Positions 6,804 through 7,604 of a stretch of 64,000 nucleotides of DNA are shown in pieces. A program made the position numbers and the translations under genes. Source of the DNA: Cognatundibacterium jejuense (lineage in GTDB: Bacteria > Pseudomonadota > Gammaproteobacteria > Burkholderiales > Burkholderiaceae_D); assembly GCF_014284255.1 (NCBI RefSeq), contig NZ_JACOFV010000002.1:124001-188000 (forward strand), read 5' to 3'. The first letter of the stretch is position 1. Each line of letters opens with the position of its first letter. The notes beneath the pieces were generated by a model that worked only from the letters and a program-made list of their open reading frames with translations, was not told where the DNA came from and searched no databases.

Positions 6804-7604
6804 CTACAAAACCAAGGTTTCAACTAAAGTCGCAGTCAAAGATGTTCGCAACGAAGCCAGCGCATCATTAAATGCTGACAAACTCAATTTCGCTGTCGCC
6901 GTTGCCAGACATTGGGTAACACCGCTACCGGCTGAAACATATGGCTCCAATTGTGCCAACACAGTATCCGCAGGATCAAGAAAAGTCACCTGCTGTGCCG
7001 CAGTTTCGAAAAAAGATTTCAACCACGGAAGATGCGTGGACGACATTGTCATCACATCCAAGGTCGGATGTTGACTGAGAAGTTGCGCAATAAAATCACT
7101 CACAGTTTTTTGTGTGAATTCCGGATTATTAAGAAAATCAAAATTCTCTACCAGATCAACTAATGACGATGCATTGCTCAAAACCACGCTGTCATGTTGC
7201 GATGTGTTCTTTGCGACGTAAGCTTGCATCGCAGTGCTCGTCACCATGGATTGCACACCTAAAATCGCGACGTGCTTAGAAACAGATTTTTCCAAGGCTT
7301 CACGCACCGGAGGAAATACACCAATAACGGGTACAGAGACCGCCTTGCGCAAGTCATCAAGAACAACGATGCTCGGCGCGTTTGATGCTAACACTACGGC
7401 TTCACAACCTTGACGTTGCAAATATTCTGTGGCGGCACGTACCGATTGCAATAATTGTTGTGGTGTCTTTGTACCATAAGGAAAACTGGCCCGATCAGCA
7501 AAATAGACAATATCTTGAGATGGGAAACGACGACGGACTCTTTCTACGATCGCATAGCTACCGATACCTGCATCAAAAACACCTATAGGGCGATGAAGTT
7601 TCAT
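6804..7604 (-). CDS. Glutamate racemase-like protein lacking both catalytic cysteines
   Basis: The 266-residue protein aligns by motif with MurI, the cofactor-independent glutamate racemase. It keeps the N-terminal IGVFDAG with Asp11, the YFADRASFPYG segment and the histidine after the second active-site cysteine (His191). However, the first catalytic cysteine (ACNT in MurI) is serine here (ASNA, Ser74), and the second (GCTH) is also serine (SSTH, Ser189). Two-base racemisation through thiols is therefore not expected. The reading frame is intact. It may be a non-racemising paralogue, a binding or regulatory protein, or an enzyme with altered chemistry. It lies convergent with recG and has no partner gene. 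Fold assignment is confident; function is not. Confidence 0.75.
   Translation of the reverse strand: MKLHRPIGVFDAGIGSYAIVERVRRRFPSQDIVYFADRASFPYGTKTPQQLLQSVRAATEYLQRQGCEAVVLASNAPSIVVLDDLRKAVSVPVIGVFPPVREALEKSVSKHVAILGVQSMVTSTAMQAYVAKNTSQHDSVVLSNASSLVDLVENFDFLNNPEFTQKTVSDFIAQLLSQHPTLDVMTMSSTHLPWLKSFFETAAQQVTFLDPADTVLAQLEPYVSAGSGVTQCLATATAKLSLSAFNDALASLRTSLTATLVETLVL

Follow-up and report, generated by a model that had tools for sequence, protein, structure and literature searches.

Can a homologue of glutamate racemase (MurI) in which serines have taken the place of both catalytic cysteines still be a racemase, or is it a decaying gene copy, or a protein with a different task? This question is raised by an open reading frame (ORF) in a 64,000-nucleotide stretch of the Cognatundibacterium jejuense genome (contig NZ_JACOFV010000002.1), hereafter called the window. 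An earlier interpretation based on the letters of the window (the sequence-only reading) had proposed a repurposed protein rather than random decay. We now consider it quite probable that the protein represents an old and distinct subfamily with the MurI fold and a Ser/Ser pair, in which the rest of the glutamate pocket also shows a fixed set of changes, and that it functions on its own as an accessory protein, its most likely role being that of an enzyme for some small carboxylic acid that is not free glutamate.

The ORF begins with ATG, contains no internal stops and lies on the minus strand, which the sequence-only reading had not specified (Table 1). Asp11 is found in the motif FDAGIGSY, Ser74 in LASNAPS, and Ser189 together with His191 in SSTHLPW; all four residues reported earlier were read directly from the translation. 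In the alignment, Ser74 and Ser189 occupy the positions at which canonical MurI has its two conserved cysteines.

Table 1. Coordinates of the studied gene and its active-site codons in the window
Feature	Position	Strand	Basis
Protein of predicted MurI fold with Ser/Ser pair, 266 aa	6804..7604	minus	ORF; coordinates include the stop codon
Residues 9-16, VFDAGIGS: Asp11 retained; Ala12 = MurI Ser11, Ser16 = MurI Gly15	7557..7580	minus	computed from the ORF
Ser74 codon (tca), site of the first catalytic Cys of MurI	7383..7385	minus	computed from the ORF
Ser189 codon (tcc), site of the second catalytic Cys of MurI	7038..7040	minus	computed from the ORF
His191 codon (cat), kept	7032..7034	minus	computed from the ORF

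The earlier assignment as a glutamate racemase homologue, with an intact frame and good fold signals, was borne out. The protein scored 57.8 bits with PF01177 (Asp/Glu/hydantoin racemase superfamily), above the gathering cut-off of 31, and 132.3 bits (E 1.9e-38) with TIGR00067, the glutamate racemase equivalog, which is under the cut-off of 146.65. Eight other subfamily members reached 87.6-117.0 bits with the latter model, and all nine members scanned were thus under its cut-off. The protein matched 24 PDB sequences, 23 of them glutamate racemases by name; the weakest is an aspartate racemase homologue. The AlphaFold model (mean pLDDT 94.2) superimposes best on MurI structure 2jfu (Z 29.6, 254 residues, 2.4 A rmsd), and Foldseek gave an E value of 2.2e-17; a MurI fold is therefore predicted for this protein. 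In a profile search of PDB sequences, glutamate racemases accounted for 23 matches (118 bits at best) and an aspartate racemase homologue for one more, with no solved subfamily member apparent among them.

An order-level search (399 sampled genomes, including that of C. jejuense) placed one other genome far ahead (268 bits, 53% identity), followed by a match of 106 bits. The leading match is also Ser/Ser and appears to be one and the same gene as L089 of Achromobacter, with which it was counted once. The alignment of the window protein with this relative served as the query for a scan of one genome per species, which yielded 208 pattern matches, 152 of them encoding a relative; the best 80 of the 152 were retained, and all 80 are Ser/Ser. 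The peptide patterns were taken from the N-terminal part and did not include the serine positions, but one of them, ADRASFPY, is a typical subfamily sequence, which biases this sample toward the subfamily. Profile searches independent of these patterns recovered members only (373-401 bits), in 3 of 398 genomes of the phylum and 2 of 294 of the family, the C. jejuense genome being included in both; no other protein was found down to E 1e-40 among the best 6 to 8 candidates scored per genome. The nine loci read from genome searches are all likewise Ser/Ser, some of them being already among the aligned sequences (L138 and L211 correspond to the Thalassospira gene L116). As a control, 49 canonical MurI loci of related genomes were inspected, and the 47 that were readable were all Cys/Cys.

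The final alignment comprised 83 rows: the window protein, the 80 relatives from the scan and two relatives from a plasmid collection (Phyllobacterium and Fusobacterium). Asp11, Ser74, Asn75, Pro77, Glu153, Ser189, Thr190, His191 and Pro193 are present in every row, Trp194 in 82, Tyr17 in 81 (Phe in the other two) and Ala12 in 80, one of the three deviating rows retaining the serine of MurI. As the Ser/Ser pair is kept in 83/83 rows, in relatives down to about 42% identity, it defines a subfamily. The sequence-only reading had set this outcome of such an alignment against another, in which close relatives carry Cys/Cys and the change is unique to one genome; it is the first that was obtained. 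The window protein shows the other marks of the subfamily as well, i.e. FDxG[IL]GS[YF], ASNxP[ST], SSTH[LM]P and Arg38-x-Ser-Phe before PYG, and it falls in the separate clade. In a quick tree of 63 subfamily rows and 8 MurI rows (SH-aLRT support only), the subfamily formed a single branch with a support of 100; its Fusobacterium row is a long branch. A conserved subfamily that is related to MurI yet distinct from it is firmly supported by these comparisons. No published natural MurI-like family with a Ser/Ser pair was found among the matches listed in the open-access literature.

Among close relatives the dN/dS ratio had a median of 0.116 and a maximum of 0.328 (78 of 88 computed pairs, not mutually independent). 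The 10 pairs excluded because their synonymous change was saturated or zero include all 6 with the window gene; synonymous sites between this gene and its relatives are saturated, so the median covers the relatives only. Among these relatives, the subfamily is under purifying selection. A decaying or mis-sequenced murI copy, to which nothing but the cysteine loss points, is refuted by the intact frame, the 83 Ser/Ser rows over several phyla and the low dN/dS of the relatives. The Cys-to-Ser change is family-wide and old rather than an event of the C. jejuense genome. Together with the Cys/Cys murI found elsewhere in that genome (see below), the family-wide pair and the low dN/dS in relatives support the earlier proposal of repurposing rather than decay.

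The active site was compared between 49 subfamily representatives (<80% identity) and 47 MurI sequences, MurI residues being numbered after L002. The catalytic loops changed in a coordinated manner. Fixed replacements from MurI to the subfamily are Ser11 to Ala, Gly15 to Ser, Leu16 to Tyr, Cys73 to Ser, Thr75 to Ala, Ala116 to Gly, Thr117 to Val, Thr120 to Leu or Met, Gly185 to Ser and Cys186 to Ser, while Arg38, Ser40, Phe41, Pro77, Pro99 and Trp194 are invariant in the representatives and not conserved as such in MurI. The sequence-only reading had both cysteines lost in step. Both are indeed replaced; the loss is, however, not confined to them, as Ser11, Thr75, Thr117 and Thr120 of MurI have gone too. 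The active-site residues of Helicobacter pylori MurI given in excerpts of PMC6927343 are D7, S8, C70, T72, E150, C181, T182 and H183; when matched by motif, four are kept in the subfamily and S8, C70, T72 and C181 are replaced. The same excerpts report a loss of about 1000-fold on a Cys to Ser change in L. fermenti MurI, and excerpts of PMC12661438 state that OpaE C90S keeps 4.8% of activity, whereas C199S and C90S/C199S keep at most 0.3%. Because the active-site changes are fixed, half of these H. pylori residues are replaced and Ser variants of MurI and OpaE lose most of their activity in the published excerpts, the pocket looks rebuilt and not merely disarmed.

The protein might nevertheless still be a slow or one-directional racemase or epimerase of glutamate, aspartate or a related amino acid, with Ser74 and Ser189 as the acid/base pair. 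The fold and several pocket residues are retained, and a hydroxyl group can stand in for one thiol, as described in parts of PMC8142540 and PMC12661438 for EcL-DER (Thr83/Cys197) and MMP0739 (Cys/Thr). Both of these enzymes, as presented there, still have one cysteine, and the cost of serine in L. fermenti MurI and in the OpaE double mutant, as well as the further pocket residues lost, speak against such activity. We regard this explanation as unlikely, also in view of the distribution of MurI among the hosts.

The C. jejuense genome encodes a separate Cys/Cys MurI (motifs ACNTA and GCTHYP, 205 bits), the second murI that the sequence-only reading had suggested looking for. A third PF01177 protein of this genome (L001:1438-2175, 148.7 bits) resembles aspartate racemase by eye (CTNTMH, GCTEI). 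From the 80 subfamily loci 39 were taken, of which 38 genomes could be searched; MurI over the cut-off was present in 34. Matches were read in 30 of these 34: 25 are Cys/Cys, three more proved so on a second look (L173, L175, L178), and in two (L184, L190) only the second cysteine was read. The four carriers without MurI over the cut-off are a metagenome-assembled genome (L067), two Nocardia, each with a second, sub-cut-off TIGR00067 match of 111 bits, and Thalassospira (L116).

Genome G671 gives the same coordinates as the Thalassospira genome of L116, and its family sample consists of a single genus, taken on this match to be Thalassospira. In this sample, all 29 genomes are without a glutamate racemase over the cut-off. 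Six have a TIGR00067 match, all six Ser/Ser (loci L209-L214), and the other 23 have no such match at E 1e-8, hence neither protein. D-amino-acid transaminase gave only sub-cut-off matches in the 10 genome handles searched (G671 and G1092 are apparently one genome), including the three distinct genomes of this genus that were searched; MurL is recorded in other alphaproteobacterial genera according to part of PMC8788868. The four carriers without MurI raised the possibility that the Ser/Ser protein replaces it, an idea we rejected, as 23 of 29 Thalassospira-group genomes have neither protein and most of them therefore make D-glutamate without it. The Ser/Ser protein is hardly a cell-wall racemase, although, given these four carriers, it could have a role in D-glutamate supply in a few hosts.

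The subfamily is rare yet widely scattered and strictly conserved. Its members carry the taxon labels Rugamonas, Duganella, Telluria, Solimicrobium, other Burkholderiales, Neisseriales, Halomonadaceae, Acinetobacter, Rhizobiales, Thalassospira, Nocardia, Leucobacter, Microbacterium and Fusobacterium, besides one bin labelled Phycisphaerales, and thus span Proteobacteria, Actinobacteria, Fusobacterium and that bin. None of 42 other genomes of the window genus carries the gene (34 of them are >=90% complete), and the four congeners with a match reaching E 1e-22 all have Cys/Cys MurI there; in the family-level search the gene occurred in 1 of 293 other genomes. At 19 recG loci of congeners, the Ser/Ser gene and the other window neighbours are absent within about 1.5 kb beside recG. 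The window segment 6709-8900, located after recG, differs from all of these loci, several of which hold an acetyltransferase-like ORF and a short-chain dehydrogenase in this place (names assigned by eye). The GC content of the window gene resembles that of its flanks. As the gene is patchy and the local region differs from congeners, its distribution fits horizontal transfer, with loss as the alternative.

Among mobile elements, the seven stretches of viral_contigs that matched the peptide patterns encoded no relative, these patterns being specific and of limited sensitivity, and no PHROGs family matched. Matches were obtained in 21 records of the phage collection (identity at most 31.9% among the 5 matches listed) and in 66 of the plasmid collection; among the 20 of the latter listed, the two best are the subfamily members of Phyllobacterium (48.7%) and Fusobacterium (42.3%), and the others do not exceed 32.4% identity. 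The Fusobacterium vincentii 'plasmid' pSB055A (L135) is probably a chromosome, since it is 2.1 Mb long. A record titled Bacillus subtilis SK6B4 (L086) is probably mislabelled or contaminated; its gene and neighbours cluster with Pseudochrobactrum.

Gene neighbourhoods were compared all-against-all (5,490 ORFs, 81 loci, 46 taxon labels). No partner gene was common to more than 6 of the 46 labels in these 81 loci; ORFs were called only crudely in GC-rich loci, where neighbours may have been missed. The contexts are lineage-specific and the racemase-like gene stands alone. Several candidate partners were considered and set aside because they recur too little. A LysE-type exporter gene lies upstream in several Halomonadaceae (Pfam assignment on L070, the rest by cluster). 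The gene stands between HprK-like, EIIA-like and HPr genes before it and AhcY after it in Brucella, Phyllobacterium and Falsochrobactrum, these names coming from models on single members (with sub-cut-off scores for HprK and EIIA) and otherwise from clusters. Upstream in Bradyrhizobium (L110) are genes for a radical SAM/SPASM protein, judged by eye to be PqqE, and for an alpha/beta hydrolase; a MocR-like gene (GntR plus aminotransferase) is divergent in Lampropedia and, by cluster, also in two other taxa. As no neighbour recurs widely enough, no pathway can be named.

One placement alone, in the pyruvate dehydrogenase operon, was seen in separate clades. The gene follows E1 and E2 and lies directly before E3 in Comamonadaceae OH2545 and Vandammella, whose proteins are 98% identical, and in Ottowia, where an extra 257-codon ORF comes in between; in Crenobacter and Neisseriaceae JH1-16 it lies just after the E3 gene. 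The E1 and E2 assignments come from models on L124 and that of E3 from a model on L101; the remainder were made by sequence cluster. The two groups sit in different clades of the tree. This placement is the only functional hint, and a link cannot be proved from just two events. The recurrence beside E3 in two separate clades hints that a cofactor-free Ser/Ser enzyme of MurI fold may handle a by-product or a damaged 2-oxo acid near pyruvate dehydrogenase, in a horizontally spread form of metabolite repair or detoxification; as a specific proposal this is a long shot.

How might such a site work? Asp11, the PYG loop, Asn75, Glu153, Thr190 and His191, all retained, would hold a ligand between the two domains, with Ser74 facing it on one side and Ser189 on the other. 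The alpha-proton of glutamate is only weakly acidic, and serine is a poor base for removing it. Any reaction would for this reason probably be limited to a substrate with a more acidic C-H or to a proton relay, and we reason that isomerase, tautomerase, decarboxylase or lyase type chemistry might take the place of two-thiol amino-acid racemisation. What we infer is an enzyme, a small-acid substrate other than glutamate and a reaction other than two-thiol racemisation.

The conserved active site could equally serve binding or regulation. The protein might then be a pseudoenzyme, i.e. a ligand- or protein-binding relative of MurI such as a sensor or a gyrase-binding protein, for which one may cite the absence of both catalytic thiols and the gyrase inhibition by MurI of E. 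coli, B. subtilis, M. tuberculosis and M. smegmatis described in part of PMC10886550. Conservation is, however, strictest in the catalytic loops, which gyrase binding would not obviously need, the gene is patchy, unlike that of a core regulator, and no link to gyrase was found in this analysis. A pseudoenzyme seems improbable to us, and on the best reading of the sequences the protein would have been repurposed, as an enzyme or as a ligand binder, and would have another substrate.

At least one member (WP_262291953.1) is annotated as an Asp/Glu racemase, although the family lacks both thiols of the mechanism. If the chemistry differs, such annotations mislead, and a cofactor-free scaffold would have acquired a novel activity that uses two symmetric serines.

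Among known systems, MurI/RacE (TIGR00067; PDB 2jfu, 1zuw, 2jfn) shares with the window model the two-domain fold over nearly the full length (254 residues at Z 29.6), and its Asp, PYG, Asn, Glu and Thr-His-x-Pro positions are kept in the subfamily. On the other hand, the nine members scanned stay under the TIGR00067 cut-off, and the subfamily has serine for both catalytic cysteines and replacements of the four MurI serine and threonine residues named above, and adds Tyr17, Arg38, Ser40, Phe41 and Trp194 as new conserved residues. The aspartate/glutamate racemases EcL-DER and MMP0739 are members of the same superfamily in which, according to part of PMC8142540, a hydroxyl residue also replaces a catalytic thiol, but only one cysteine is exchanged, giving a Cys/Thr pair; the EcL-DER structure 5ell is also farther from the window model (Z 15.9 versus 29.6 for the best MurI). 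Arylmalonate decarboxylase (Gly74/Cys188), as portrayed in part of PMC4996985, is a superfamily member that has one of the two cysteines and catalyses a different reaction. It differs from the Ser/Ser proteins in keeping that cysteine; the comparison covered the cysteines and the reaction.
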